Origin: Symplocastrum torsivum CPER-KK1
Lineage (GTDB): Bacteria > Cyanobacteriota > Cyanobacteriia > Cyanobacteriales > Coleofasciculaceae
NCBI GenBank assembly: GCA_019358875.1
Contig: JAHHIF010000030.1
Span: forward strand, 1-64,000
Length of the DNA: 64,000 nt
Direction: 5' to 3'
Positions 15,642-37,807 of this stretch are shown here, in pieces; positions within the stretch are counted from its first letter, which is position 1; every line of letters begins with the position of its first letter. The translations under genes were made by a program, and so were the position numbers. Below the pieces are notes generated by a model, which saw nothing but the letters and a program-made list of their open reading frames with translations, was not told the origin of the DNA and did not search any database.

Positions 15642-15722
15642 GAGAATTTTTGATTTAGGAATTACCTACTGTACAAAAAGACCGTATTTGCCTATTTGCT
15701 TCCTACCTACTTAAAAAAACTC

Positions 15723-16481
15723 TTATTTTTTCTCCATAAGAGAGTTAAGGAAAGGAGTTCTGGAAGTGTGCAATGCCGCTAATTTGGTTTCCTGAAGATT
15801 GATAAAAGACTTGGTTCTTACAAGCGAACGACGAGAGCGTTGAGATATGGGAAAGGCAAAATTTTCAAGCATTTCTTGGAAATTATCTACTTGGTCATCA
15901 ACTAGCCCAGCCGATACTGCCTGACTATTAGAAAGATAGTTTCCAGTAAGTAAACAGTAATTTGCAATACTTAAATTGGCTTTGCTTTTAATCATTCCAA
16001 ACCCTCCTAGTCCAGGTACGATGCCAATTCTTATCTCGTGAAGCGCGAATTGAGATTTTGGTGTCGCAATAATAAAATCTGAAGAAAGCGCCCATTCAAA
16101 TCCACCCCCGCGACAAATTCCATCAACAAAAGAAATTGTGGGTATAGCACACTCAATAAGGCGTTGATAACTATTGGCTATTTTGTCATAGATTTGGGTT
16201 TCTCCGTTTTTTAATTGCTTAACCGTTTCTCCAAACATCTCTTGTAAAGAAAATCCGTCTGAGAAATAGTTAGGTATTGTGCTATTAAAAATTAGGCAGC
16301 GAGTGACATTATTGCTCACTACCTCATCAACTACTGAAGTGAGTAGTTGAATATTTTCTGGATTAAAAGTATTACGTTCATTCAAGGCAAAATTGATACA
16401 TGCTACACGCTGTGAATAAAAATACTCCACACTAACAGTTTTTGTGCCATCTTCTCTTGACAAAGAAACCTGAGTATGCAT
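15723..16481 (-). CDS. Enoyl-CoA hydratase/isomerase family protein (polyketide-type)
   Basis: 252 residues, close to the crotonase family length. Features seen: the oxyanion-hole region CRGGGFEWALSSDFIIA and the catalytic-region HEIRIGIVPGLGG, which has one acidic residue. The first residues (MHTQVSLSREDG) and the divergent sequence resemble polyketide-associated decarboxylases or hydratases rather than beta-oxidation enzymes. No PKS genes are near. The gene is inverted inside an otherwise plus-strand cluster, between the CHAT and CHASE2 genes, with hairpin-repeat copy B about 150 bp upstream of its start. An insertion is therefore likely. Substrate unknown. Confidence 0.78.
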   Translation of the reverse strand: MHTQVSLSREDGTKTVSVEYFYSQRVACINFALNERNTFNPENIQLLTSVVDEVVSNNVTRCLIFNSTIPNYFSDGFSLQEMFGETVKQLKNGETQIYDKIANSYQRLIECAIPTISFVDGICRGGGFEWALSSDFIIATPKSQFALHEIRIGIVPGLGGFGMIKSKANLSIANYCLLTGNYLSNSQAVSAGLVDDQVDNFQEMLENFAFPISQRSRRSLVRTKSFINLQETKLAALHTSRTPFLNSLMEKK

Positions 16482-16501
16482 AAAAAATACCTATCAGTAA
16501 A

Positions 16502-16651
16502 ATGAACTCTTCTACTTATCCAATAGGTGAAACCTCGGTTTACTTATACAGCATCAGAGAAGTTGAAGCTGTGAAGGCAGCCCTGTATCTGCGGCTCAAA
16601 AGCATTACCAGCAAAGTGTTTGGCGCTATCTACAATTCACATCCCATCTGA
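16502..16651 (+). CDS. Possible 49-residue ORF, unknown
   Basis: ATG at 16502 to TGA at 16649-16651. The protein is coding-like (REVEAVKAALYLRLKSITSK) but resembles nothing I recognise and has no clear ribosome-binding site. It may be a gene fragment left by the rearrangement that placed the enoyl-CoA hydratase here. Its last bases overlap the hairpin repeat. The remaining part of the 16482-16824 gap shows no other gene. Confidence 0.2.
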   Translation: MNSSTYPIGETSVYLYSIREVEAVKAALYLRLKSITSKVFGAIYNSHPI

Positions 16652-16683
16652 CAAGTGTATAAGTTGATTTCACTTACACCTAT
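16633..16683 (-). repeat. Dispersed hairpin repeat, copy B
   Basis: The reverse complement matches 10043-10092 almost base for base, including both stem arms and loop. Read on the minus strand it lies about 150 bp upstream of the enoyl-CoA hydratase gene, about the same distance and orientation as copy A to its own downstream gene. Confidence 0.75.
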
Positions 16684-16824
16684 AAAGAATTCAGTTGAAA
16701 AATCAATAGTTTCCAGAAATTGCTTAACGATAGAAGAAGGTGCTTGATGTAACATAGAGGAGCTTTCGGTAATGCTAGGGTGACTGAGGCACTTATAATC
16801 TGACTATTCTTTTGTCAGACACCT

Positions 16825-19419
16825 ATGAGTAGGTTAGTGGTTTTAAGCTTGGGTCAAGGTAACCTACACCAAGGTTTGCCTGCTGTTACGGCACAGCTTG
16901 GGGAACCAGATAACTCCTACCGGATGAAATTTACTGCTAGTTTACCTGCCGCACCAGAAATTTCCGAACTTTATCGAAATTGGCAGTCGCTCTATCGGGC
17001 TTTCTATCAACGACATAGTTTGCGTGTTGGTAGCGAAGAACTTGAAGAAAATTACGATGATTTTGAAATTGAAGAAGCTTACATAACTAATGTTTCTGAA
17101 GTCGATCTAACTCATTTATGCCAGCAGTTTACAAACAGCATTAATGCCTGGCTCCAGTCAACAGAGTTTCGCAAGATTGACCAACAATTACGTACGCAAC
17201 TAAAACCATCTGAGGAAATTCGCTTCATTATTGAAACGAACGATGATTTACTGCGGCGAATCCCCTGGTATCTGTGGAATTTCTTTGAGGATTACCCTCT
17301 GGCGGAAGTGGCATTAAGTGCTTCTGAATATCAACAACCGAATAAATTACCTACAAAAATTCGGATAGGGAAAGTTAGAATTTTAGCTATATTTGGCAAT
17401 AGCAAAGGAATTGAGATTAGTCAAGATAGAACTTGTTTAGAAAACTTATCAGCTCAGGCAGAAATTGAATGTTTAGTAGAGCCAAAGCTAGACCAGTTCA
17501 ATGACAAACTTTGGCACCAAGATTGGGATATTCTCTTTTTTGCAGGTCATAGTTCCAGTCAAGAAAAAGGTTGTCTTCAACTCAATCAAACAGACACGAT
17601 TGCCCTTGACCCATTAAAGTATGCTCTCAAACAAGCGATTAGTCGTGGGCTGAAGCTAGCGATTTTCAACTCCTGTGATGGTTTAGGGTTGGCGCAGCAG
17701 CTACAAGATTTGCAGATTCCGCAAGTCATTGTCATGCGAGAACCTGTGCCGGATAGGATAGCTCAAGAATTTTTAAAGCATTTTTTAGCTGAATTTTCAC
17801 GGGGACAGTCTTTATATGTTGCGGTGCGTTTTGCACGAGAAAGACTGCAAGCACGAGAGGGAGAATATCCCTGCGCCACTTGGTTACCAGTAATTTGCAC
17901 CAATCCTGCCGAACCGCCAATGATTTGGCAACAGCAGCGAACTCGGACTGAAGTCGTAGACGAGGCAGACGATTTAGCGGTACCTCCCGCCGTTAGCGCC
18001 AGAGCGAAACACAAAAAACTTCGAGTGGTAAGGAGAAACACCGCCCCTGGAAACTTCAGCAGCGAGTCTGTCTCCAGAACAGCAAAGCAGAACCCGTCCA
18101 CCAGACATCGCTCCTCTATTACAAGCGATCGCCATCTCCAAACCCTATTGGTAGCGAGTGTGCTTGTAGCCGCTTTGGTGATGGGAGTGCGCCATCTGGG
18201 GATGCTACAACCGAGGGAGTTGCAGGCTTACGACCATTTAATGCAACTGCGAAGTGCAGATGAAAAGCCAGATTCGCGTCTGTTAATTGTCACTGTTGAT
18301 GACGCGGATATTCAGTATCAACTCCAGAAAAAGATGAATATGCGATGGTCGCTATCTGACCAAGCACTGGCTCAACTTTTGCAAAAACTGGAGCAGTATC
18401 AACCAAGCGCTATTGGTATAGATATTTATCGAGATTTTTCTGTTGACCCCGATTATCCGGATTTAGCGACTCGTTTGCGACAGGATAAGCGCCTATTTGC
18501 CGTGTGCAAAGTTTCTGCTCCTAGTGATAGCGCACCTGATGGCACTCTCCCCCCTCCTGAAGTCTCAAAAGAACGCCAGAGTTTTAGTGATTTTGTGGCG
18601 GACAGCGATCGCATTGCCCGTCGCCAGCTTTTGCATTTAACCCCTCCCCTAGAATCTCCCTGTGCGGCAAAGTATGCTTTTAGCTATCTTCTGGCACGGC
18701 ACTACCTGAATGAACAAGGCATCAAGGCGGACATCAATCGAGAACGGAACTTGCAAATTGGCAATGTTGTGTTTAAGCGATTAAAATCCCACTCTAGCGG
18801 CTACCAAGGAGTGGATGCATCGGGTTATCAACTACTGCTCAATTATCGCTCCCTGCCTTCTCTCCAAAATATTGCTGATCGAGTCGCTCTCAGAGACGTT
18901 CTTAGTGACCAGATTAACCCTGAGTTATTGGAGTCTGTGAAGAATCGTATCGTCCTAATTGGCGTTACCGCCCCAAGTTCTTCTGATTATTGGGAAACCC
19001 CCTTTAGCGCTAGCGCACCAGACGAGGAAAAGCAAATACCAGGAGTGTTTGTGCAGGCGCAGATGGTGAGCCATATTTTGAGTGCCGTTCTGGATGGCAG
19101 ACCTTTATTTTGGTGGTGGTCTGGGTGGGTGGAAGCGCTTTGGGTGTGGGGATGGTCATTGCTGGGAGGGGCTATAGCGTGGCGTATTCGTCAACCACTC
19201 TATCTGGGGTTAGGTATTACTGTTGCGCTGTTGACAGTTTTTGGCATCTGTTTTGGTATATTTACACAGGCAGGCTGGATACCTCTGGTTCCATCGGCAT
19301 TGGCATTGGTGTCTTGTGCAGTGGTGTTGAAGGTACTCCCGCGCCCCCATCCAAGCAGCAGCAAGAAACGTTTGCAGGCTGAACTACGAGCAAAAATATG
19401 TCACCTCAAAAGCCGATGA
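16825..19419 (+). CDS. CHAT-like domain - CHASE2 membrane sensor
   Basis: 864 residues. The N-terminal third is CHAT-like: LLRRIPWYLWNFFED, then a His in FFAGHSSS and a Cys in IFNSCDGLGLA, ending about residue 370 with WLPVICTNP. After a basic linker a first membrane helix (LLVASVLVAALVMGV, about 436-455) leads into an extracytoplasmic CHASE2 sensor (LQAYDHLMQLRSADEKPDSRLLIVTVDDADI, through about 760). Then come two or three C-terminal membrane helices and a basic cytoplasmic tail. CHASE2 domains bind unknown ligands, so this looks like a membrane sensor coupled to a cytoplasmic caspase-like module. Its stop overlaps the DUF928 start by 22 bp, which indicates co-translation. Confidence 0.87.
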   Translation: MSRLVVLSLGQGNLHQGLPAVTAQLGEPDNSYRMKFTASLPAAPEISELYRNWQSLYRAFYQRHSLRVGSEELEENYDDFEIEEAYITNVSEVDLTHLCQQFTNSINAWLQSTEFRKIDQQLRTQLKPSEEIRFIIETNDDLLRRIPWYLWNFFEDYPLAEVALSASEYQQPNKLPTKIRIGKVRILAIFGNSKGIEISQDRTCLENLSAQAEIECLVEPKLDQFNDKLWHQDWDILFFAGHSSSQEKGCLQLNQTDTIALDPLKYALKQAISRGLKLAIFNSCDGLGLAQQLQDLQIPQVIVMREPVPDRIAQEFLKHFLAEFSRGQSLYVAVRFARERLQAREGEYPCATWLPVICTNPAEPPMIWQQQRTRTEVVDEADDLAVPPAVSARAKHKKLRVVRRNTAPGNFSSESVSRTAKQNPSTRHRSSITSDRHLQTLLVASVLVAALVMGVRHLGMLQPRELQAYDHLMQLRSADEKPDSRLLIVTVDDADIQYQLQKKMNMRWSLSDQALAQLLQKLEQYQPSAIGIDIYRDFSVDPDYPDLATRLRQDKRLFAVCKVSAPSDSAPDGTLPPPEVSKERQSFSDFVADSDRIARRQLLHLTPPLESPCAAKYAFSYLLARHYLNEQGIKADINRERNLQIGNVVFKRLKSHSSGYQGVDASGYQLLLNYRSLPSLQNIADRVALRDVLSDQINPELLESVKNRIVLIGVTAPSSSDYWETPFSASAPDEEKQIPGVFVQAQMVSHILSAVLDGRPLFWWWSGWVEALWVWGWSLLGGAIAWRIRQPLYLGLGITVALLTVFGICFGIFTQAGWIPLVPSALALVSCAVVLKVLPRPHPSSSKKRLQAELRAKICHLKSR

Positions 19420-20213
19420 AACTTGCTGGTGTTATTCCTTTGCTAGTCCTAATGCTTGCAAGTTACCCACCAGGTGTACAGGCAGAGCTAGCGCGATCAC
19501 TAAACGCACCGTCCTCTGGACGATCGCTCAGCAATATCGTTGCTAACACACCAATCCACCTGGCACAGAATTTTCCAGATGAAGGCGATCCTAAGGGTCG
19601 CCGCCGAGGAGGGACAAGCCGTCGTGAGGGTTGTCCTGCCCTGAAAACGCCTATTACTGCCTTGGTACCGGGTGAGGAAACTAACGGCACATCGTTCTTG
19701 GCATCAACAGTCGCTGAGTATCCAACCTTTTGGGTTTATGTTCCTGAGTTACCCACGAACCTACGCTCTGGAGAGTTTGTGTTGCAAGATGAAGAGGGTA
19801 ACGATGTGTTTAGGACACCGCTCACCTTGCAAGGATTGCCCGGAGCGATCGCGATCGACCTGCCGTCAAATCCACAATATGCTCTCAAGCAAAACTCGAA
19901 GTATCACTGGTTCTTCCGAGTTTATTGTGGTGACCCACAAAATCATCCCGAATATATTTTTGTTGACGCATGGATGCAACGGGTAGCGCTAACTCCCGAC
20001 CTTCAGCGGCACTTGCAGACAGCAAAACCACGGGAGTACACCGCTTACGCTGCCCATAATGTCTGGTACGATGCTGTGACCAATTTAGCTGAACTACGCC
20101 GCACTAATCCAGACGATCGCGTCCTAACTGAAGAGTGGACTAAGTTGTTGAAAGCTGTTGGTTTGGAAGAACTTGCAAGAGCGCCCATTGTTCAACATTA
20201 CACGCCGGAATAA
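19398..20213 (+). CDS. DUF928 family exported protein
   Basis: 271 residues. An N-terminal signal peptide ([22 protein letters not shown]) is evident. The body matches DUF928: [15 protein letters not shown], then [11 protein letters not shown]-like sequence ([11 protein letters not shown]), then [10 protein letters not shown]. The family is cyanobacterial, of unknown function, and usually lies next to CHASE2 and haemagglutinin genes. It overlaps the CHASE2 gene and is followed 35-50 bp later by the haemagglutinin gene, so the three likely form one transcript. The protein is expected in the periplasm or outside the cell. Confidence 0.85.
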
Positions 20214-20266
20214 TAAGTTATAGTTCTGGAAATTATCAGCTTGGGCTGATGGGAGAGGGGTGTACT

Positions 20267-23200
20267 ATGTCCAGAATAGCCCGATACTGGTGGCGTTGGT
20301 GCGGTCAAGTTGTGGCGTTAGGGAGTGGGCTGGTGCTGGGGGGAACGTTAGCAAAGCTACCTGTGATTGCCCAAGGGACACCAGCAAAGCTGAGCGAGAG
20401 ATTTGCTTCTAGTGGAGATTATGTATTAGCCCAGATCGTACCCGATCGCACTTTACCCAGTAATTCTAGCGTCAGTTCGCAGGACAACATCAGAGTTATT
20501 TCTGAAGGAACTCAAGCCGGAAGCAACCTGTTCCACAGCTTTGAAGAGTTTTCTGTACCTACTGGAACGGAAGCTTACTTCAACAATACCCTGGATATTC
20601 AGAACATCTTCAGCCGCGTGACAGGTAGGTCGATATCGAATATTGATGGGCTGTTTCGTGCTAACGGAACGGCAAGTCTATTTCTGCTCAATCCTAATGG
20701 AATTATTTTTGGCCCTAATGCCAAGTTAGACGTTGGCGGTTCGTTTGTTGCAACTACGGCAAGTAGTTTCAAGTTTCCCGATGGTAGCGAGTTTAGTGCC
20801 ACCAATCCCCAGGCACCACCGTTACTGACGATTAATGTAACTCCGGGGTTGCAGTGGGGAGCAAGTACGCCAGGAGCAACTATTACCAATACTGGAAATT
20901 TAGCAGCAGGACAAGACCTGAGCTTGGTGGCTGACTTTCTTGACTTGCAGGGTCAGTTACAGGCTGGGAGAGATTTAACACTCTTAGCACAAGATACAGT
21001 ACAGGTGCGCGACACTGTGACGACACCGCTTTTAGCGCAAGCGAGTGGTAATCTCACCATTCAGGGCAATCAAGGAATAGACATCTTAGCGCTGAATCAC
21101 CCAATGCAGATACCGTTTGTGAGTGGGCGTAATCTGAGCTTAATCAGCGATGGCATTATTTCTCTTGATGCTCGTATGAGCAGTGGTGGCAGTTTTTCCC
21201 TCACAAGTGTATCGGGAGAACTGGCAAATATGGTGAGCTTTTATGACCCGATTATCAGTGCCAATGGTGATGTGGATGTGGCGGCTAACTATACAGGAGC
21301 ATCACTGTTAGTCGAAGCAAGGGGTAATATTCGCTTCCAAGGTGATATCAACATCACCGGACCAGATACTAGCACTTTGCCTCCTGGACCAGATACTGCA
21401 ATACTTAGTACGAGTTCAGCATTAATCATGCGATCGGGGCAGAGTACTCTAGCTTATGGCGCTGCCAATTCTGGTGCAGTACCTGCCTATGGCACTGAGC
21501 CTGTGCCTGCTGGAATTACGATAGGTGGGAATGTTATCTTACAGCCGTTTAATGGGACTGGGGGAACAGTGACGCTATCGGCGGCATCGGGGAATGTGAG
21601 TACCCAGAGGGTTACTACTAATGGTGGCGCGATTAATATTAACAGTGCTGGAGCGATCGCTACTAATGGACAAGCCCTGGACACTAGGAATGGGGCAAAC
21701 AACGGGGGTGAGATTACCCTTGTCGCCAACAACGGCAGCATTACCACTGGCAATTTGAACTCTGACTCGTACTCTAATTCTGGCAGTGCCGGAAATGGAG
21801 GCGCGATTTACCTTAATGCCATGGGGGGAAGCATTATTACAGGTGATGTAAACTCTTCCTCTTTCTCTAATTCTGGCAGTGCCGGAAATGGAGGCGCGAT
21901 TAGCATGAGCGCCAACAATGACAGCATTACCACCGGCTTGTTGGCATCTAACTCGTACTCTTATTCTTCTGACACAGGGGGAAGTGGAGCGGCGATTACC
22001 CTTCAAGCCGCCAACAGCATCAAGATCGCTGGCGATTTGTTTTCTTACTCGCGGTCTGATTCTGGCAATGCAGCAAATGGGGGCGCGATTAGCCTTGGTA
22101 GTACCAATGGTCGTATCACAACAGGTGATGTAAACTCTTCCTCATTCTCTACTTCTGGCAGTGCCGGAAATGGAGGCGTGATTAGCATGAGCGCCAACAA
22201 TGACAGTATTACCACCGGCTTGTTGGCATCTAACTCGTACTCTTATTCTTCTGACACAGGAGGAAGTGGAGCGGCGATTACCCTTCAAGCCGCCAACAGC
22301 ATCAAGATCACTGGCGATTTGTCTTCTTACTCGCTCTCTAATTCTGGCAATGCAACAAATGGGGGCGCGATTAGCCTTCAAGCCACCAACAGCATCAAGA
22401 TCGCTGGCGATTTGTTTTCTTACTCGCGGTCTGATTCTGGCAATGCAGCAAATGGGGGTGCGATTAGCCTTGGTAGTACCAATGGTCGTATCACAACAGG
22501 TGATGTAAACTCTTCCTCATTCTCTACTTCTGGCAGTGCCGGAAATGGAGGCGTGATTAGCATGAGCGCCAACAATGACAGTATTACCACCGGCTTGTTG
22601 GCATCTAACTCGTACTCTTATTCTTCTGACACAGGAGGAAGTGGAGCGGCGATTACCCTTCAAGCCGCCAACGACATCAAAACAGGCGATTTAATCTCTT
22701 ACTCTAATCAGTCTGGAACTGGCAATAGCGGGAATATCACCATCAACAGTATAGAGGGGACAGTAAATACGGGCGCTGTGGACGCGGGTACATTGGCGAA
22801 CAACGGGGGAACTGTTCAGATTTCTGCTTTTAGGGATATTGGTATTAACGGCAAAATAGACACTTGGACGAATGGTTCTGGGAATGGGGGTAATATCACC
22901 CTCACAAGTACAAATGGTGCGATCGCAGTTACAGGCTACTTGGACTCTCGCACTAACTCTGGCAATGGGGGAAATGGCGGTGCAATTACCCTGAGCGCCG
23001 CCAACGACATCAATATCACTGGTTATTTGCACTCTTCCTCTGTGTCCGATTATCGCAGTAGGGGTGACGGAGGCGCGATTAACTTATCGACAACGGGAGG
23101 CAACATCACCACTGGTGGCTATTTGCGCTCTTACTCGGTATCTGTTACGGGCAGTGCAGGAAATGGAGGCAATATTAGCTTATTTGCTGCAAAAGACATC

Positions 23201-25636
23201 AATATCAATGGCGATTTGAGTTCTGACTCGCACTCTCGCTCTGTCACAGGGGGAAATGGGGGCGCAATTAGCATTTTTACCGCAGGGGGCAGTATTACCA
23301 CTGGCTATGTGTTATCTGACTCATACTCAGATCTTCGAGAATACTCTGTTTCGGGCACAGGGGGACAGGGGGGCGCGATTAGCATTTTTGCTGCCAACAC
23401 CATCAAGACTGATGCAATTAACTCCACAGGGGCGCAGGGAGGAAATATTACCATCTCAAGTTATGCGCCTTTCGCTTTAGATAATAGGGTCATCTCTAGC
23501 GATACCTTTGGCTCTGGCAAGGGAGGAGATATTCAGATTACTGCTCCTGCCATTTCCCTCACAGGAGGCGCACAAATATCCGCCTCCACTCATAGCAGTG
23601 GACGGGGCGGGGATATCACTCTTAGAGTCTCCGACAAAGTAGAACTGAGTGGAGCAACAACCAATCCTCCCAAAGGCGTTTTTAGCCCCGGATTTGCCAC
23701 AATTTCAGCCGGGAACTACTTAGGCGGTTTTATTCCCACTGGTAATCTTCCTGTTGATAACATTGGTTTTCCTCTGCCACCTCCACCTGGAACCATATTT
23801 CCTAGCGGTGTGTTTACTCAGGCTACAATCGGCTCCACTGGCAGTGGTGGCAACCTGAGAATTGAAACAGGGCGACTGAGCATCAACGACGGAGCAGCCA
23901 TTGCTACCACCACCTTCGGGCAAGGCAGCAATGCGGGCAACATCTCAGTGCTGGCTCATGACTCTATCTCGATTGCCAATGGCTCACTATTGAGCGGGGT
24001 AGCAGGAGGAGCGAGAGGCGATAGTGGCACGATTGACCTTCAAACTCGTTCCCTTTCTGTAACGGGAGGCGGAGTTGTGCAAACGCAGACCCTGGGAGAG
24101 GGAAATGCTGGAGCGATTCGCGTGAATGCAACTGATGCAGTCACAATCTCAGGCATCAACACCACTTCTAATCCTGTCATTCGCAGTGGTCTACGCTCAG
24201 GTAGTGGTGGCAGCAATGATCTGTTGGGGACAACAGACAGCAACATTGGGCAGGGTGGCGACATCAGCATCACAACGGGTATATTGAGCGTAGTTGACGG
24301 AGCCGTTTTAGATGCCCAAACCCAGAGTAACTCTAGCGGCGGCAACATTACCGTCAATGCCAATACCTTGAGTGCTGTCAATGGCGGCCAACTGCTCACC
24401 TCTACCTCTGGCGGCGGGGAAGCAGGTGACATCACGGTGAGCGCTTCAGAATTAAACTTGACTGGCTCCAATAGCGGTTTGTTTGCCCAGACAACCAGTA
24501 CAGCAAACGCTGGCAACTTGACTATTCAACCACTTGGTGAGGGGCAGAACTTGACGGTTAATTTCCGGGATGGGGCGCAGATATCAGCATCCACCTCTAG
24601 CCGTGGTAATGGAGGAGACTTGAGGATAACTGCCCCTGAGTCTATCACCCTCACTGGCAATGGCTCTCTTATATCCGCTGAAACTTCTGGCAGTGGGACA
24701 GGCGGCGACTTAACCCTAAAAACCGGAACGTTGACGGTGAACGACAATGCACAAGTCACGGTAAGCAGTTCCCAGACCGGGAATGCAGGGTCAATAACCG
24801 TTGAAGCTGACGCTATCCGTCTCGACAACAAAGGAAAAATCAGTGCTGATACCTCTGGAGGTGGGGGGAATATTGAGCTGCGATCGCGCGACTTGATACT
24901 GCGTCATGGCAGCAGCATCACCACCAATGCCAGAGGAAGCAGTATCACAGGCGGCAACATCACCATCGACACTGACAACTTGGTTGCCGTTCCAAATGAA
25001 AATAGCGACATCAGTGCCAATGCTGAAGATAGCTTCGGCGGTCGAGTAATTGTCAATGCTTCTGGCATCTTCGGTACCCAGTTCCGCGATGCGCCCACAC
25101 CATTAAGTGACATCACCGCCAGTTCTGAGCTTAGTCCTCAGTTCAATGGCACCGTGGAACTCAACACACCTGGTATCGACCTCAACCGAGGCTTAATGAA
25201 CTTGCCAACTGCACCCGTTGACACCGAAGTGTCCCAAGTTTGTCAAGCGGGTACCCGTCAAAATCAAAACTCTTTCATCATCACTGGACGCGGCGGCTTG
25301 CCACCCAATCCCAGACAATTTCTTAGAAGTCGAGCTGTTGAGGTAGATTGGGTGACGCTGGACGCTCCGGCAAACAATCTTACCGAGGATGTCCAGAATA
25401 GGGAAAGACAACAGCAGAGAAGCGGCGAACAAACTTCAAAAAGTGCCAATAATGTCAATACTCAAAGCTCTGAAATTGTGGAAGCGCAGGGGTGGGTGGT
25501 GGAAGCCAATGGCAACATTATCTTAGTCGCAACGGCACCGACTGCCACGTCCCATAGTTCCTGGCATACACCAGCGGATTGCCGTACAGTTGAATCAACG
25601 AAACGATCAAACCTACTTGTGGAACGGGCGCACTAG
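20267..25636 (+). CDS. Filamentous haemagglutinin-like two-partner-secretion exoprotein
   Basis: About 1789 residues from the ATG at 20267, chosen over the ATG at 20249 because GGAGAGGGG lies just upstream of it. A long signal region (about 1-40) precedes a TPS/haemagglutination-activity domain (about 45-300) with the hallmarks [40 protein letters not shown] and [11 protein letters not shown]. The rest is Gly/Ser/Asn/Thr-rich and repetitive, as in right-handed beta-helix adhesins. A Cys-containing C-terminal domain ([22 protein letters not shown] ... [13 protein letters not shown]) is typical of cyanobacterial members. It should be secreted through a TpsB outer-membrane porin, which is not encoded in this window. 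Probable role: surface adhesion or aggregation. Confidence 0.9.
21844..22690 (+). repeat. Near-identical nested repeats inside the haemagglutinin gene
   Basis: A block starting at 21844 recurs at 22126 (282 bp on) and again at 22501 (375 bp on). The periods equal 94 and 125 codons, that is three and four units of about 31 residues, so the second interval has gained one unit. DNA identity between the later two copies is almost complete, which points to recent slippage or unequal recombination. Confidence 0.85.
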
Positions 25637-26462: not shown

Positions 26463-27395
26463 TTAAGGAATGGTTTTATCGTGATGAATTGTCTTGACTC
26501 GGATTGAACCGTGCAGGTCGAAATTGTCATCTTTGAGAATCTCTAGCAAGGCATCGCAACGATCCACTGATTTTGCCCATACTTCTCGAGTTTTGGGATT
26601 ATGTGCGTGTTCCAAAACTTTCCGGCGTATCTTGATAAAAGCCTCTAGCCATTCTTTTTCATCAACGCCCGTCTTAGGGGTACCGCCCACTTGCTTTTGT
26701 GTACGCTTCAGTATCGCCGGTAAGCCATCAGGGTCATCTCCTTCCCCATGTTGGATAATCGTGTCATATACTGCGGCTCTTGCCAGGGCTGTGCTTAATC
26801 CCGCATTGTTTGAAAGTTTCACTGAAGGTTGATAGTATAACCTGTCATTAACCTCATCTTGAGCTGCACGAAATTTGGAATCCTTGGCGGCTTTCTTCCA
26901 AGCATTAATAAATCCATCCAGACGGCTAGTATTGCCACTTATGTTCTTAGCTAGGCGTTTAAGTTCTGGCAGAAACTTTGCTAAGACATTATCTGGCACA
27001 TTCTCGCTATAAAGCTCTACGACATCCAAAGCATCCCCCCATTGAGTGGTAAAACCAGCTCGTCCGCAAGTGATACCTCTGTCATCGGTGAGTTCCTCGG
27101 CATAATGGTATTGCAGCTCAATGTCGTCAAACTCAAAAATACTAGTAAACTGCTCCGCACGGCGCTTCTGTTCCGGAGTTAGTCCACCACTAGCCGACGG
27201 CGGGGTAGTCTGCCCATTCGGTAGGCAGATTTCCTGACCCTCTTGCAAATTCTCAGCTTCCTTTTCTGTGAATGGGGTACCATCAGGCTTCATAATTTCA
27301 TGCCAACGGTTCCCCTCACCTAATTCGCGATCGGCAATATCAAATAGTATGTCGTCTGCCTTTATGGTGTAGGAACTACCGATTGTACAAGTCAT
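26463..27395 (-). CDS. LysM-domain GH46 chitosanase
   Basis: 310 residues. The first 60 resemble a LysM module (YTIKADDILFDIADRELGEG ... LQEGQEICLPNG). A short Pro/Ser linker leads to a glycoside hydrolase family 46 domain. The family signature is visible: IFEFDDIELQYHY, then ELTDDRGITCGRAGFTT and GDALDVVELY. By comparison with Streptomyces chitosanase, Glu88 and Asp105 would be the catalytic acid and base. The reaction is endo-hydrolysis of beta-1,4 glucosamine links in chitosan. No signal peptide is visible, which is unusual for a secreted chitosanase, so it may be released by lysis or exported by another route. Hairpin-repeat copy C lies about 60 bp before its start, on the opposite strand. 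Confidence 0.82.
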   Translation of the reverse strand: MTCTIGSSYTIKADDILFDIADRELGEGNRWHEIMKPDGTPFTEKEAENLQEGQEICLPNGQTTPPSASGGLTPEQKRRAEQFTSIFEFDDIELQYHYAEELTDDRGITCGRAGFTTQWGDALDVVELYSENVPDNVLAKFLPELKRLAKNISGNTSRLDGFINAWKKAAKDSKFRAAQDEVNDRLYYQPSVKLSNNAGLSTALARAAVYDTIIQHGEGDDPDGLPAILKRTQKQVGGTPKTGVDEKEWLEAFIKIRRKVLEHAHNPKTREVWAKSVDRCDALLEILKDDNFDLHGSIRVKTIHHDKTIP

Positions 27396-28997: not shown

Positions 28998-29342
28998 ATG
29001 GCGCGGCAACTTTTAGAACTGGATACGGAGGATGGCGGCACCATTCTCGTAGCTATAGATGCACCGGAGGATGCAGTTGGTCGGGTATCTGCTCCTGGAG
29101 AAACACCTGTTAAGAAACTGGATCAGAGCTTTGAGGTGGTGCAAGCTTTAATTGTGCGAGGATGCCGTCCGCTCACTAGAGCCTTTAGGCAGCTACATCA
29201 AGAAACTCAAGCGACGAGTGCAGAAGTTGAATTTGGGGTCAGCTTTAGTGCCAAGGGGAATGTTTATCTGATGGAATCCTCTGGGGGTGCGACGCTCAAG
29301 GTTAAGGTGACTTGGAATATGGCAAGCCAGCCGAACTCATAA
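28998..29342 (+). CDS. Trypsin-co-occurring domain protein (Trypco1 / CU044_2847 family)
   Basis: 114 residues from the ATG at 28998; a TTG at 28971 would add nine residues. The protein is a single small domain: MARQLLELDTEDGGTILVAI, then GCRPLTRAFRQL and the conserved end EVEFGVSFSAKGN ... GGATLKVKVTW. This matches the Trypco1 family, which was described next to trypsin-like proteases in NTP-dependent biological-conflict systems. It sits 9 bp before the trypsin-TIR-ATPase gene on the same strand, exactly the expected partner. In the model for these systems, such effector-associated domains link a sensor or ATPase to its protease by domain pairing. No catalytic residues are apparent. Confidence 0.78.
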   Translation: MARQLLELDTEDGGTILVAIDAPEDAVGRVSAPGETPVKKLDQSFEVVQALIVRGCRPLTRAFRQLHQETQATSAEVEFGVSFSAKGNVYLMESSGGATLKVKVTWNMASQPNS

Positions 29343-29351
29343 TGACGCTGT

Positions 29352-31544
29352 ATGAGTTGGGAACTGGTTAAAACTTGTACAGTTGCGATTGCCGCATTCG
29401 CGGCACCGCCAAGGGCGATCGCCTCTTCCGAAGAGGGCAGAATTTGGGGGACGGGCTTTTTCATCTCACCAGAAGGACATTTACTCACTTGCGCTCATGT
29501 TGTAGAAGATGCAGGTGGGTGGGAACAGGTGCGGGTTAACGGTCAACCTGTGAGTTTAGTGTATTTAGGCGATCGCACTCAAGATGATTTTGCCATCTTA
29601 CAGGTATCAGACTACCAAGGGCAGGCAGTCCCCCTGTCCCTGACTTTTGAGCCGATGAACCGCTTTCTCAGTATCGGCTATGGGCGTCCTGACTTTCCAG
29701 AGGGAGCCTCGATTGATGGCACGATTACCGATCTCAATTCCCAATCGAATTTTGGGAATCTGCCGATGCTACGGTTGCGAATTAAGGCGGATGCTCAACG
29801 GGTACAGGGGGGCTATAGCGGTTCGCCTGTGTTTGATGCTGAAAGTCAACGGGTGATTGGACTGATTGCTGCCTTTGATTATACAGAAGGTGCCCTCGCT
29901 GTCCCCTTGGCGACGGTACTCCAAAAGTGGTCGAGTTTAGAACGATTTCTCAACCCCCAACCGACTGTGCCACCCTTGGAACCAACGGGTCAACGTGCCA
30001 GAGTGTTTATCAGCTATCGCAGCCAAGACCCAGATTTAACGCTTGCCCAGCAGTTTTATGAAGGCTTGAAAGCGGCGGGACATGAAGCCTTCATGGCAGG
30101 GGAGAGTATTCGACTGGGTGAAAACTGGCCGGAGCGGATTGATCGAGAATTAGAGCGGTGCGATTACTTTTTGCTGCTATTGTCTGATAAATCAGCAACC
30201 AGTGAGATGGTAACGGAGGAGGTGCGACGGGCGAGGGAACTGCGCGAGCGCCGTTCGGAACATAAACCGATAATCCTACCGATTCGGGTCAATTTTCCTA
30301 TAGATTCCCCTCTAAATTACGACCTGCGAGGCTATTTGCAGCGGATTCAGCAGCGGGAATGGCACTCGCCTGCTGATACTCCGGTGATTTTGCCGGAAAT
30401 TCTGAGTTTGTTGGCATCAAGTGAGGCACCAGCCCCAGCAGAATCTCCAGAAATAGCACTGCCTGTGGTGGACAGCCCTGAGCGTCCACCTTTACCAGTA
30501 GCAGAGCCGGAAGTACACAGAGAACCAGGGGGGTCAGTCCCTCTCACGTCTAGTTTATACGTGGAGCGACCACCGATTGAAGTGGACTGTTACGAGGAGA
30601 TTTTGCAGTCTGGGGCACTAATCCGAATTAAAGCGCCCAGGCAAATGGGTAAAACTTCGCTGATGGCAAGGATTCTTAATCATGCTAAAGAGCAGGGCTA
30701 TCAAACGATACCGATAACCTTGCAGCGGGCAGATAGTGCGCTTTTGAGCGACCTGGATCGATTCTTACGCTGGTTTTGCGAACAGGTGGGTCGCCGACTG
30801 AAAAAGTTGAATCAGTTAGAGGAGTATTGGAGTGGGTATGGCAGCAAGGATAAATGTATTGCCTACTTTGAGGAGTGTTTGTTAGAAGAACTCGATACTC
30901 CTTTGGTCATTGGTTTGGATGAAGTTGATCGGGTTTTCCCCCATCGGGAAATTGCTGATGACTTTTTTGCCCTGCTGCGCTCTTGGTATGAGTTTGCTCG
31001 GTATGGCGATATGAATAGCGAACTCTGGGAAAAACTCCGATTGGTGGTGGTGCATTCCACCGAAGTTTATGTACCCCTGGATATTAATCAATCACCGTTT
31101 AATGTGGGAACGAATATCGAGTTACCGGAGTTTACCTCAACTCAAGTACAAGATTTGGCAGGGCGTTATGGGTTGAGTTGGTCAACTCATCAGGTTGAGC
31201 AATTGATGACACTGGTGGGAGGTCATCCCTATTTAGTGCGAAAAGCTCTCTATCATATTCGTCGTCAGGATGCAATCCTAGAGGAACTAGAGCAAACGGC
31301 TCCTACAGAAGCGGGAATTTACAGCGACCATCTGCGGCGACACTTGTGGAATCTTAGACAGTATCCTTCGTTAGCCCAAGCGTTTCGTCAGGTTGTTATA
31401 AAAAATAAACCTGTGGAGCTTGATGCGGAGTCAGCCTTCAAATTAGACAGCATGGGGCTAGTCACGCTTCAAGGTAATGATGTGACACCGCGCTGCGATT
31501 TGTATCGATACTATTTCCGCGAGCATCTGGGGAATCAAAAGTGA
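29352..31544 (+). CDS. Trypsin-like protease - TIR - AAA-like ATPase fusion
   Basis: 730 residues with three modules. (1) About 1-200: trypsin-like serine protease with the triad His49 (LLTCAHVVED), Asp79 (DDFAILQV) and Ser156 (VQGGYSGSP). (2) About 214-345: TIR domain (RVFISYRSQDPDLTLAQQFY ... DYFLLLLSDKSATSEMVTEEV) that keeps a Glu in the position used by NAD-degrading TIRs. (3) About 385-720: AAA-like STAND-type ATPase with Walker A APRQMGKTSL and Walker B LVIGLDEVDRVF. No signal peptide, so cytoplasmic. The start ATG gives a protein that begins directly at the protease. With Trypco1 before it and a second ATPase gene one base after its stop, it reads as the effector and switch of a conflict system. 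Trigger unknown. Confidence 0.86.
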   Translation: MSWELVKTCTVAIAAFAAPPRAIASSEEGRIWGTGFFISPEGHLLTCAHVVEDAGGWEQVRVNGQPVSLVYLGDRTQDDFAILQVSDYQGQAVPLSLTFEPMNRFLSIGYGRPDFPEGASIDGTITDLNSQSNFGNLPMLRLRIKADAQRVQGGYSGSPVFDAESQRVIGLIAAFDYTEGALAVPLATVLQKWSSLERFLNPQPTVPPLEPTGQRARVFISYRSQDPDLTLAQQFYEGLKAAGHEAFMAGESIRLGENWPERIDRELERCDYFLLLLSDKSATSEMVTEEVRRARELRERRSEHKPIILPIRVNFPIDSPLNYDLRGYLQRIQQREWHSPADTPVILPEILSLLASSEAPAPAESPEIALPVVDSPERPPLPVAEPEVHREPGGSVPLTSSLYVERPPIEVDCYEEILQSGALIRIKAPRQMGKTSLMARILNHAKEQGYQTIPITLQRADSALLSDLDRFLRWFCEQVGRRLKKLNQLEEYWSGYGSKDKCIAYFEECLLEELDTPLVIGLDEVDRVFPHREIADDFFALLRSWYEFARYGDMNSELWEKLRLVVVHSTEVYVPLDINQSPFNVGTNIELPEFTSTQVQDLAGRYGLSWSTHQVEQLMTLVGGHPYLVRKALYHIRRQDAILEELEQTAPTEAGIYSDHLRRHLWNLRQYPSLAQAFRQVVIKNKPVELDAESAFKLDSMGLVTLQGNDVTPRCDLYRYYFREHLGNQK

Positions 31545-31545
31545 T

Positions 31546-34131
31546 ATGAGTACAGCACCCAACCCGGCATATAAGTATCAATTCGGAGGGAGTTTAGAGA
31601 GGGATTCTCCTACTTATGTGGTGCGGCAGGCTGATGAAGAATTCTATCAAGCTTTGAAAGCTGGGGAGTTTTGCTACGTCCTCAATTCGCGCCAGATGGG
31701 CAAGTCCAGCTTGCGGGTGCAGACAATGCGGCAGTTGCAAGGAGATGGCATTGCCTGTGGTGTTATCGATATTACCTCGATTGGGAGCCACGATATTACT
31801 CCAGCCGAGTGGTATCTGGGTGTCGTTCGCCGATTGGCGCGAAGTTTGGGACTCAAAATTAAGGTAATCCAGTGGTGGAATGAGCGGGAAGGGCTATCGC
31901 CGACACAACGCTTGGGTGAATTTCTCGAAACTGTGCTGCTGGCAGAGATTCCTCACAATATTGTCATCTTTATCGATGAAATTGATAGCATTCTCAAGCT
32001 TAGTTTAAAGGATGATTTTTTTGCCCTGATTCGGGTTTGCTATAACGAACGTGCAGACAATCCAGAATACCGACGCCTTACTTTTGCGCTGCTGGGAGTA
32101 GCGACACCCTCAGATTTAATTCAGGATAAAACCCGCACGCCATTTAATATTGGCAGCGCCATTGAATTGCGGGGGTTTCAGTTGCAGGAAGTGCAGCCGT
32201 TAGAACGGGGATTACAGGGGAAGGTGGATAATTCCCAAAAGGTTTTCACGGAAATATTAGCCTGGACGGGAGGGCAACCGTTTCTGACTCAAAAGCTATG
32301 TCAACTGGTTCTCTCATCTCCATTTACGATTGCCTCTGGTAGTGAAGCTGAGTTGATTGAGGAATTAGTGCGATCACGCATTATCGAAAACTGGGAATCT
32401 CAGGATGAGCCGGAGCATTTGAGGACGATACGCGATCGCATTTTGAGCAATGAGCAACGGGCTGGATATTTGCTGGAACTGTATCGGCAGATTTGGAACA
32501 CTGGAGAAGTTACCGCTAACAATAGTGAAGAAGAAGCCAGATTGCAGCTTTCGGGGTTAGTCGTCAAGCAGGCAGGAAAATTAAGGGTTTACAACCGGAT
32601 TTATCGGGAGGTGTTTGACCAAAGTTGGATTGAGCGAGCGTTAGGGAATCTGCGTCCATACTCCGAGGTGTTTAGAGCTTGGGTAGCTTCAGATTCTCAG
32701 GATGAATCCCGACTGTTGCGCGGTGGGGCATTGCAGGAAGCTCAAGCTTGGGCTAGAGGGAAAAATTTAAGCTATCTCGATCAGCAGTTCCTAGCTGCTT
32801 GCGAAAAAAAGGTGATTGAAGAGCGGATTGCCGTAGCAGATAGGGAAGCGGAATTAGAGCGGGAACGCAAGGATAGGGAAGCGGCAGAACAGAGAAACCA
32901 AGCTCTCGTTGAGGCGAATCGGAAAGCACAACAGCGTATTGTCATTGGGTCTGTTGTATTAGTCACAACTTTACTGGTCGCCGTAATTTTAGCAATCTTA
33001 GCAAGGAGGGAAGTTGTAAAAGCGGAAAGTGTAAAAAATATCTCACGGTTAGCTCAAATCGGTGGAACACTCCAAGATATGGGACTAGCTTCTGAGGCCA
33101 ATGAGGCATGGAATCAATCAAGTCGAGCGCTCGACATCCCAAACGATAAACTGAGACAAGCTATGCTATTCGCTTCTACTTCCTTAGCCCATCAACAACT
33201 CGGACGACAATATGAGGAAAGTGACGAGCAGAGCGAGGCTGAGAAACAGTGGGATGAGGCGGAAAAAACACTTAAGCAAAGTCTGACGCTGTTGTCTTCA
33301 CAAGCAAATATGAATGTTCCCGAACAGTGGGCAATTCGCGTCCACGTCAAGAGAGTTAAGGGGAATTTGCGTAGGCAACAAAAGAAGACTCAAGAGGCAT
33401 TAGAAGCTTACACGGAAGCATTCAATACCCTCAAGGAGGCAGGGAGTAAACTACCACCAGTTGATAGAGATACAGAAAATCCAATCTATGAGTTTCTTCC
33501 TGAGAAACAGAAAATTCTCTCAGCGAGCGCTGTGGAAAATCTACATCGAGAATTCCTCGAACTATTGCCCCAAACATCAAGTCCAGACAAGCAACGGAAA
33601 ATTAACGAGGTTAGGGAATCTCTTAAAGCTCACTTCTTCGCTGAACTTAACTACTTAATGAGAGTCAATAACTGGAGAGAGGCTGATAGAAAAACTGTTC
33701 AAACTATGCTCTACATAGCAGACAGAGAAAAACAAGGTTATCTCGATATCGCAGATATCAAAAAATTCTCCTGCCCTGCTCTTCATACTATTGACAAGCT
33801 TTGGGTGGAACGCTCACAAGGAAAGTTTGGTTTCAGCATACAAAAGCATATTTTGGACAGCTTCCTCAACCAACCAAGGCACTACGATTGGCGCTACGAT
33901 CAAATTCATGGGGAAGCTTGGGATAAGTTTTTGCGTAAAGTGGACTGGCAGAGGATCAGCTCAGAACGAGATATTATTTATAACAAAAAAAAGGCAACAA
34001 GTGGACACCTGCCTTGGGAGGGCGGCAATACGGCAGTGGTTGCGGAGCGCTGGCGGGTCGGAAACCGTGGAGGATGGAGGGCGGAAGTAACTTTTTCTCT
34101 CGCGTTGCGACTTGTAGAATGTAATATATAA
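31546..34131 (+). CDS. AAA-like ATPase - membrane helix - TPR - GUN4 protein (frameshifted near 3' end)
   Basis: 861 residues as read. The N-terminal AAA-like domain (about 1-370) has Walker A NSRQMGKSSL (Lys53) and Walker B IVIFIDEID. A charged coiled-coil segment (about 405-465) and one membrane helix (IVIGSVVLVTTLLVAVILAIL, about 465-490) follow, then TPR-like repeats. The C-terminus from about residue 700 is a GUN4 domain: NNWREADRKTVQTMLYIADR, FSCPALHTIDKLWVERSQGK, FGFSIQKHI. After GHLP (about 34010) the frame encodes unrelated sequence, while the frame that ends at TAA 34122-34124 reads FFSRVATCRM, the normal GUN4 end, so one base appears lost. GUN4 domains bind tetrapyrroles, which could make this a tetrapyrrole- or light-linked sensor partner of the upstream ATPase. 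Confidence 0.85.
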   Translation: MSTAPNPAYKYQFGGSLERDSPTYVVRQADEEFYQALKAGEFCYVLNSRQMGKSSLRVQTMRQLQGDGIACGVIDITSIGSHDITPAEWYLGVVRRLARSLGLKIKVIQWWNEREGLSPTQRLGEFLETVLLAEIPHNIVIFIDEIDSILKLSLKDDFFALIRVCYNERADNPEYRRLTFALLGVATPSDLIQDKTRTPFNIGSAIELRGFQLQEVQPLERGLQGKVDNSQKVFTEILAWTGGQPFLTQKLCQLVLSSPFTIASGSEAELIEELVRSRIIENWESQDEPEHLRTIRDRILSNEQRAGYLLELYRQIWNTGEVTANNSEEEARLQLSGLVVKQAGKLRVYNRIYREVFDQSWIERALGNLRPYSEVFRAWVASDSQDESRLLRGGALQEAQAWARGKNLSYLDQQFLAACEKKVIEERIAVADREAELERERKDREAAEQRNQALVEANRKAQQRIVIGSVVLVTTLLVAVILAILARREVVKAESVKNISRLAQIGGTLQDMGLASEANEAWNQSSRALDIPNDKLRQAMLFASTSLAHQQLGRQYEESDEQSEAEKQWDEAEKTLKQSLTLLSSQANMNVPEQWAIRVHVKRVKGNLRRQQKKTQEALEAYTEAFNTLKEAGSKLPPVDRDTENPIYEFLPEKQKILSASAVENLHREFLELLPQTSSPDKQRKINEVRESLKAHFFAELNYLMRVNNWREADRKTVQTMLYIADREKQGYLDIADIKKFSCPALHTIDKLWVERSQGKFGFSIQKHILDSFLNQPRHYDWRYDQIHGEAWDKFLRKVDWQRISSERDIIYNKKKATSGHLPWEGGNTAVVAERWRVGNRGGWRAEVTFSLALRLVECNI

Positions 34132-36466: not shown

Positions 36467-37807
36467 ATGGAAACCCTAGACTTGCTTCGCTCTGGAGAGT
36501 TAGCCGGGAGCAAACGACTCAATATATCTTGCGGACTCACTCAATTTCCCTCAGAGATTTATGCTCTTGCCGATTCCTTAGAAATCTTGGATCTATCGAA
36601 TAACCATTTAAAAACCTTACCCGATGAGTTTGAACGATTAAAGCGCCTCAAAATTGTTTTCTTTACCAACAATGATTTTGAGGAAATTCCAGAGGTTCTT
36701 TCACACTGCCTTGACCTCAAGATTGTGAGTTTTAAATCCAACCAGATTGCGAGTGTTGGCGAGCAGACCCTACCACAAAAGCTCCGCTGGCTGATTCTCA
36801 CTAACAATAAAATTGAGAAGCTACCCACTTCCCTGGGCCGCCTGAGCAATTTGCAAAAGCTGATGCTAGCTGGCAACCAGCTTCAGTCGCTCCCAGAGTC
36901 AATGGCTTCTTGCCAGAAATTGGAACTCATACGGCTTTCGGCAAATCAGCTCACTGAGCTGCCCCCTTGGTTGTTCACCCTGCCTCGCCTGTCTTGGCTG
37001 GCTTATGCTGGCAACCCCTTGTGTAATAGAGACACTACGACAAAGCGAGTACTTCGAGACATTGATTGGTCTGAGCTGACGCTGGGGGAAATCCTTGGGC
37101 AAGGGGCGAGTGGGGTGATTTATCAGGGGCTTTGGACAACCCAGCTTGCCCAACAAGAGGTGGCGCTCAAAATCTTCAAGGGTGAAATCACCAGTGACGG
37201 GTTACCGGCTGATGAAATGGCGGCAAGTTTGGCGGCTGGGTACCATGACAATCAAGTTAACGTGCTAGGCAAGCTCAGCAACGAACCCCAGGAGAAACTT
37301 GGGCTTGTGTTTTCGCTCATCCCTCCCCATTACAAAAACTTAGGGCAGCCGCCAGACTTTGACACCTGCACAAGAGATACCTACAGTGCTTCCACCTCGT
37401 TCTCTTTGCCTGTCATTTTACGCATTGCTCAGGGCATTGCCTCGGCGGCGGCACACCTTCATGCCAAAGGCCTCATGCATGGTGATCTCTATGCTCATAA
37501 TATTCTGGTGGATGAAACGGGTCAGAGTTTGCTGGGAGACTTTGGAGCCGCCTCTAAATATGACAAGAGTGATGGGGTGATAGCGCAAGCGCTAGAACGA
37601 TTAGAGGTGAGGGCGTTTGGGTGCTTACTTGAGGATATGTTAGACCGTTGCACACTCCAGGAGGAGTCTTTGCACTATAAAGCCGTGGAGAGTCTTCGTT
37701 GCTTACAGCAAGAGTGTCTCAAGCCAGTTTTATCACAGCGTCCTCAGTTTACAGAAATCAGCGAGCGTTTGACTAGTGTTGAGCGACAGGTTTATGGCAC
37801 AGCCTAA
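36467..37807 (+). CDS. Leucine-rich-repeat protein kinase
   Basis: 446 residues. The N-terminal 205 residues hold about seven LRRs of the LxxLxLSxNxLxxLPxx type. The kinase domain follows (about 205-440) with glycine loop GQGASGVIY, Lys in VALKIF, catalytic loop HGDLYAHNIL and metal-binding GDFGAAS. The catalytic loop is HGDL instead of HRDL, as in the known bacterial LRR-kinase family. The start matches how this family begins (METLDLLRSGELAG). It is probably a cytoplasmic Ser/Thr kinase; target unknown. A fragment of a different kinase ends exactly at its start codon, so its own promoter may lie inside that remnant. Confidence 0.88.
   Translation: METLDLLRSGELAGSKRLNISCGLTQFPSEIYALADSLEILDLSNNHLKTLPDEFERLKRLKIVFFTNNDFEEIPEVLSHCLDLKIVSFKSNQIASVGEQTLPQKLRWLILTNNKIEKLPTSLGRLSNLQKLMLAGNQLQSLPESMASCQKLELIRLSANQLTELPPWLFTLPRLSWLAYAGNPLCNRDTTTKRVLRDIDWSELTLGEILGQGASGVIYQGLWTTQLAQQEVALKIFKGEITSDGLPADEMAASLAAGYHDNQVNVLGKLSNEPQEKLGLVFSLIPPHYKNLGQPPDFDTCTRDTYSASTSFSLPVILRIAQGIASAAAHLHAKGLMHGDLYAHNILVDETGQSLLGDFGAASKYDKSDGVIAQALERLEVRAFGCLLEDMLDRCTLQEESLHYKAVESLRCLQQECLKPVLSQRPQFTEISERLTSVERQVYGTA

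Follow-up and report, generated by a model that had tools for sequence, protein, structure and literature searches.

Introduction

Trypco1 was named by Kaur, Burroughs et al. (2020, eLife, PMC7159879), whose VMAP and MoxR-vWA ternary systems place it beside a trypsin domain, draw on trypsin, caspase, cyclase and TIR heads in a modular grammar, and include GUN4 in cyanobacterial versions. These authors also drew attention to GUN4 in the conflict systems of cyanobacteria and suggested that it acts as a sensor of photosynthesis status (tetrapyrrole) in conflict proteins, and its porphyrin-binding Phe/Arg have been published (PMC8967248). In the two-NTPase STAND systems with GT4/HEPN effectors (Kaur et al., 2021, PMC8195603), two STAND-like proteins are proposed to form a mixed ring, and one of the two ATPases has eroded motifs. 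Anti-phage receptors of the STAND/NLR type, namely Avs proteins and bacterial NACHT proteins such as bNACHT25 (PMC12169576), share a logic of effector head, ATPase and sensor tail.

The three-gene cassette described here lies in a 64-kb stretch of DNA, called the window below, and is classed with the NLR/STAND-type modular conflict systems, as a variant. Trypco1 lies beside trypsin, and TIR and protease heads are present as in the VMAP-type grammar (PMC7159879), in agreement with the conflict-system flavour recognised in an earlier note on this DNA. By contrast with VMAP/MoxR-vWA, two AAA_35 ATPases make up the core and the tails can be putative extracytoplasmic sensors; no MoxR, vWA or VMAP component was found by Pfam among the cassette and flanking genes, and the cassette is not VMAP because MoxR/vWA is lacking. 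Its STAND-like fold lies near Avs3/Avs4, and it has in common with NACHT proteins a genomic site and the trypsin/Trypco1 head, but it is split over two ATPases and usually membrane-anchored, and it is not a bNACHT system since genes 2 and 3 have no NACHT match in Pfam at E 0.01. Unlike in the two-NTPase STAND systems, both ATPases retain Walker A and B. Its GUN4 domain has the recognisable sequence and fold of cyanobacterial GUN4-domain proteins, from which it differs in forming the C-terminus of an ATPase anchored in the membrane. PADLOC 2.0 gave shared-domain matches and no whole-system match; its PD-T4-6 match on gene 3 covered only the GUN4 tail and was discarded as evidence of defence. 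No description of the AAA_35 pair as a system was found in the openly accessible literature searched.

Organization of the Cassette

All three genes lie on the forward strand. Gene 1 (28998..29342) encodes a 114-aa Trypco1 protein (PF19493, E 3.7e-18), a predicted partner or adaptor of the trypsin domain; its homologues in other genomes are 57-65% identical and adjoin the same trypsin. The ATG at 28998 was taken as the correct start, since the Nostocaceae homologues likewise have 114 aa and the N-terminus MARK. Gene 2 (29352..31544) encodes the 730-aa ATPase-a protein, in which Pfam recognised Trypsin_2 (E 1e-17), TIR_2 (E 3.6e-20) and AAA_35 (E 4.4e-145), and its homologues with all three domains occur at loci L071, L078, L153, L202/L223, L203, L204, L205, L243 and L244. 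The HtrA-like trypsin domain (29352..29966, PF13365; PDB match HhoA) is followed by a TIR domain (30000..30383, PF13676), which weakly matches the bacterial TIR 7uxr, and by a clade-a ATPase domain with a STAND-like fold (30525..31523, PF14516, 483 bits). Gene 3 (31546..34131) encodes the 861-aa ATPase-b protein, identified by Pfam and by its place in the ATPase-b clade. Its clade-b AAA_35 domain (31588..32619, PF14516, 124 bits, E 9.3e-36; Walker A/B intact) leads through a coiled coil and a conserved SRLLRG linker to a predicted transmembrane helix (aa ~465-486, 32938..33003, hydropathy 2.89). Beyond it lie a helical TPR-like region (33091..33576), with Pfam TPR matches only below the cut-off, helices in the AF2 model and Foldseek TPR matches, and a GUN4 domain (33631..34017, PF05419, E 5.8e-25) matched by Foldseek to the GUN4 structures 1z3x, 7e2r and 4xkb. 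Structural support for the GUN4/TPR part is only moderate, given its mean pLDDT of 72.7.

The genes are separated by 9 bp (1/2) and 1 bp (2/3), in line with the proposal that the three are packed as one unit. A scan found fewer promoter-like matches than shuffled sequence (3, shuffle mean 5.9) and more terminator-like matches (10, shuffle mean 5.6), none of the latter within the intergenic gaps. Pfam identified the flanking genes as integrase, ParA, ParB, LRR-kinase and GH46. The recombinase said to stand beside the cassette is real (PF00589) but incidental, being absent from the flanks of homologous cassettes; recombinase and ParAB were ruled out as system components, as these cassettes have different flanks.

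The intact protease triad (H49/D79/S156) and the putative catalytic Glu of the TIR domain, both claimed previously, are indeed present. Among relatives the triad is near-invariant (H in 37/37, D in 36/37, and S in 34/34 of those covering its position), and the catalytic-position Glu is retained in 40/43; loss of these residues among relatives, which the earlier note had named as evidence against its own reading, is thus not what was found. Together, a TIR domain and its catalytic Glu are features that would fit a TIR NADase. Selection on trypsin, TIR and ATPase was purifying in the homologous heads of Nostocaceae (dN/dS 0.05-0.19). The two ATPases do share one Walker A type, QMGK[TS]SL in both genes 2 and 3, and their Walker B motifs, LDEVD and IDEID, are likewise intact. 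For the AF2 model of the clade-a ATPase domain (pLDDT 92.7), Foldseek ranked 2qen and 2fna, both archaeal ATPases, as the nearest solved folds, followed by Avs3, ORC/Cdc6 and the plant NLR RPP1, with Avs4 also matched; on account of these neighbours the domain is regarded as STAND-like, and it combines Walker A and B with the STAND/ORC-type fold of the STAND class.

A Conserved Pair of AAA_35 ATPases

Cyanobacterial genomes were searched and neighbourhoods typed with local profiles and Pfam. ATPase-a designates the C-terminal type of gene 2 (~390-520 bits to Pfam AAA_35) and ATPase-b the N-terminal type of gene 3 (~100-130 bits). Separating the two by the scores of their own HMMs was abandoned because the profiles drifted together; a tree was used instead, in which they form two deep clades (split SH-aLRT 100), three rows being mislabelled by position owing to contig ends or ORF starts. 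Among the 34 loci with enough flanking sequence, ATPase-a adjoins ATPase-b in 31: 28 in the same orientation and no more than 3.5 kb apart, two overlapping and one divergent, with a gap below 110 bp in fourteen cases. The partners also co-diverge (Mantel r 0.62, p 1e-4, 42 pairs), which may partly stem from shared ancestry and joint transfer of both genes. The host genome itself has four ATPase-a genes, three of them with a b partner.

The constant core is this STAND-like pair, and all other parts are exchangeable. The cassette is real and more general than the earlier note supposed, being part of a cyanobacteria-wide pattern of modular AAA_35 pairs that lay beyond its account. Chance neighbourhood, or a chimera in decay whose parts do not work together, would suit the exact GUN4-bearing combination having been found once; the gaps of 1 bp and 9 bp, the pairing in 31/34 loci and the dN/dS of the homologous heads nevertheless make such an explanation barely credible.

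Exchangeable Heads and Tails

The order Trypco1/trypsin-TIR-ATPase-a/ATPase-b was found in the window and in eight other genomes, at L071, L078, L153, L202 (= L223, Tolypothrix FACHB-123), L204 (UBA8803), L205 (Scytonema NIES-4073), L243 and L244; the L078 copy has a truncated b gene, with two short ORFs in between. The search for the three neighbours across cyanobacteria suggested by the earlier note thus succeeded for the gene order, but none of the eight is GUN4-tailed. In Symploca SIO3C6 (L203) trypsin-TIR-ATPase-a and ATPase-b stand without Trypco1, and the tail of ATPase-b (L203:8953-11508) is a second trypsin-like domain; L235 and L249 have a cassette version without TIR. The trypsin/Trypco1 pairs of L205 and L078 are distant (trypsin 29-39%, Trypco1 24-36% identical), so this module may have joined TIR-ATPase-a more than once.

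According to Pfam, heads of ATPase-a with a TIR are trypsin-TIR (with Trypco1), CHAT-TIR, caspase-TIR, adenylate cyclase-TIR, kinase-TIR and HTH-like-TIR, and those without are CHAT alone, a/b-hydrolase-like and trypsin alone. Tails of ATPase-b comprise WD40, TPR, TPR-GUN4, HisKA-HATPase (L153 and L210), FHA and peptidoglycan-binding domains, and also Peripla_BP_6/ANF receptor, second trypsin, GAF-like (by eye) and multi-TM types. The latter, in L207, L211, L243 and L249, span ~400-800 aa with two to six predicted TM helices and no Pfam match, and are possibly a pore or an unknown receptor.

GUN4 behaves as one of these tails. It is found on ATPase-b in seven other loci (L104, L105, L155-L159), whose partners are CHAT, a/b-hydrolase-like or incomplete, some of them not directly adjacent. 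The ATPase-b domain of the window is closest to those of L203 (74%, trypsin tail) and L072 (69%, WD40 tail), compared with 55-58% for the GUN4-tailed ATPase-b domains, and constraining the ATPase tree to a single origin of GUN4-tailed ATPases was rejected (AU p 1.5e-36). GUN4 is accordingly seen as a swapped tail, since the tree rejects a single origin and GUN4-tailed ATPase-b has other partners. The window's GUN4 domain, the most divergent of nine in the host genome, satisfies Pfam and Foldseek as a family member in sequence and fold; its core LW..S...FG[FY]S.QK is retained.

The earlier note had seen in the GUN4-carrying second ATPase the mark of a dedicated abortive-infection device, and its GUN4-input idea has a precedent in Kaur et al. 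(2020, PMC7159879). A device defined by GUN4 and triggered by the cytosolic tetrapyrrole level could invoke the supported GUN4 fold and that published sensor proposal. It must reckon, though, with the lack of GUN4 in all eight other Trypco1/trypsin-TIR cassettes, with the polyphyly of GUN4-tailed ATPase-b, and with a TM topology that disfavours a cytosolic tail. GUN4 as the defining component was ruled out by the first two observations, and the device as a whole appears improbable to us.

A Fixed Site Shared With NACHT Genes

In Nostocaceae the cassette occupies a fixed site, bordered on one side by a divergent RR-kinase gene that is ~80% identical across strains and on the other, within the fetched stretch, by ureC (identified from sequence) or groEL. 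Alleles at this site in Nostoc strains and Tolypothrix are 80-93% identical in TIR-ATPase-a and 63-85% in ATPase-b, and their tails are unrelated between strains, except for the related pair L207/L211. We sampled 40 site loci through the RR-kinase gene alone, of which two were cut by contig ends and 38 were intact. An AAA_35 cassette was present in five, NACHT-NCH2 proteins in five, Trypco1 with trypsin-NACHT in one, and short remnants of NACHT genes, recognised by their N-terminal sequence, in three; the remaining loci held other genes or nothing. The interval from RR-kinase to ureC (L223-L262) is thus a hotspot in Nostocaceae for the cassette, NACHT-NCH2, Trypco1 with trypsin-NACHT, remnants or none. 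The NACHT proteins of this site are only putatively anti-phage receptors.

At L226:6352-9636, Trypco1 adjoins a trypsin-NACHT-NCH2 protein, and its trypsin is 90% and its Trypco1 96% identical to the Tolypothrix cassette versions at the same site. These identities at one site lead us to conclude that the trypsin/Trypco1 head has moved between a NACHT receptor and the AAA_35 pair.

Constant flanking by the RR-kinase gene in Nostocaceae, together with the HisKA-HATPase tails of L153 and L210, could point to a two-component-like module in which the ATPases serve a phosphorelay and TIR is a scaffold. The RR-kinase gene is nonetheless present in 185/218 genomes searched and the cassette is absent from 33/38 intact RR-kinase loci, for which reasons it was regarded as a flank and rejected as a partner; the TIR catalytic Glu, retained as described above, also speaks against a scaffold, and such a module is highly improbable.

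Membrane Topology and Proposed Mechanism

A TM helix like that of gene 3 was found in 40/54 ATPase-b proteins. In the 47 TM-bearing ATPase-b proteins used for flank charges, the mean net charge was +3.6 on the N-side and +0.6 on the C-side, the N-side being higher in 41, lower in none and tied in six (p 2e-8, a generous value since the sequences are related). This more positive N-side flank suggests a cytosolic ATPase, with most ATPase-b tails probably exposed on the other side of the membrane, a location that suits the periplasmic-binding and peptidoglycan-binding types. Where the TM helix is missing, the domains are of HisKA, FHA or GAF-like type, in keeping with a cytosolic position. In the window the flanks of gene 3 tie (+3/+3), and GUN4 outside the cytosol would be odd, which weakens the case for an extracytoplasmic tail in this protein.

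The cassette may represent one version of a modular receptor-effector system that has two ATPases and serves immunity or cell death, our preferred reading, for which we consider the case evenly poised. It builds on the observed gene order, domains, catalytic residues, pairing and co-divergence, and on the exchange of heads and tails at a fixed site that, like the trypsin/Trypco1 module, is shared with NACHT proteins; the biochemistry sketched here, from sensing and relay to oligomerisation and TIR and trypsin action, is deduced from the protein families concerned. ATPase-b would act as receptor and detect a signal with its exchangeable tail, here TPR-GUN4 with a putative ligand-sensing GUN4, probably across the membrane where a TM helix is present. 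Linker and TM helix would relay this signal to the STAND-like ATPase of ATPase-b, which ATPase-a, carrying the effectors, would join in an ATP-dependent mixed oligomer. Clustering of the TIR and trypsin domains in this oligomer would allow TIR to cleave NAD+ and trypsin to cut a target, perhaps so as to release or regulate Trypco1, with growth arrest or cell death as the outcome, as in NLR-type immunity.

The missing system match in PADLOC and the lack of Trypco1 at L203 count against this reading, and histidine kinase, GAF-like, FHA, periplasmic-binding and peptidoglycan-binding tails, like cyclase and kinase heads, would also suit ordinary signalling. The system might instead be a stress or death regulator whose tail responds to tetrapyrrole, light, envelope or nutrient status and whose TIR/protease head drives death or dormancy, with no phage role: tails of the periplasmic-binding, peptidoglycan-binding, GAF-like, FHA and kinase types typically sense the environment, and some heads are an adenylate cyclase or a protein kinase. 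Presence/absence, wholesale tail swaps and the NACHT-shared site, however, typify conflict genes rather than core regulators, and we hold this regulator to be unlikely, while giving it real weight.

For the immune receptor-effector reading, the broader proposal that cyanobacteria have undescribed two-ATPase, membrane-spanning immune receptors, in which a constant STAND-like pair takes swappable sensor tails, GUN4, periplasmic-binding and peptidoglycan-binding domains among them, and swappable TIR, protease or cyclase heads, reassorted at a hotspot shared with NACHT genes, is put forward tentatively, as somewhat short of an even chance. If true, filamentous cyanobacteria would own a split NLR-like receptor family with sensors outside the cytosol, an arrangement that would recall the way in which receptors on the surface of animal cells signal to TIR effectors, and the long-noted cyanobacterial fusions of GUN4, WD40 and TIR would gain a common context. 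The exchange of tails among alleles of a single locus would then point to the part that should set the trigger, so that ligand specificity could be tested directly.

Other Genes of the Window

Elsewhere in the window, a 446-aa protein combines LRR and protein kinase (36467-37807), and a 780-aa NACHT protein (47664-50006, reverse strand) lies near a second tyrosine recombinase (51102-52676). Consecutive genes at 12948-25636 encode CHAT-TPR, CHAT-CHASE2, DUF928 and a 1795-aa filamentous-haemagglutinin-like repeat protein, and a glycosidase of the GH46 chitosanase type is encoded on the reverse strand at 26463-27395.
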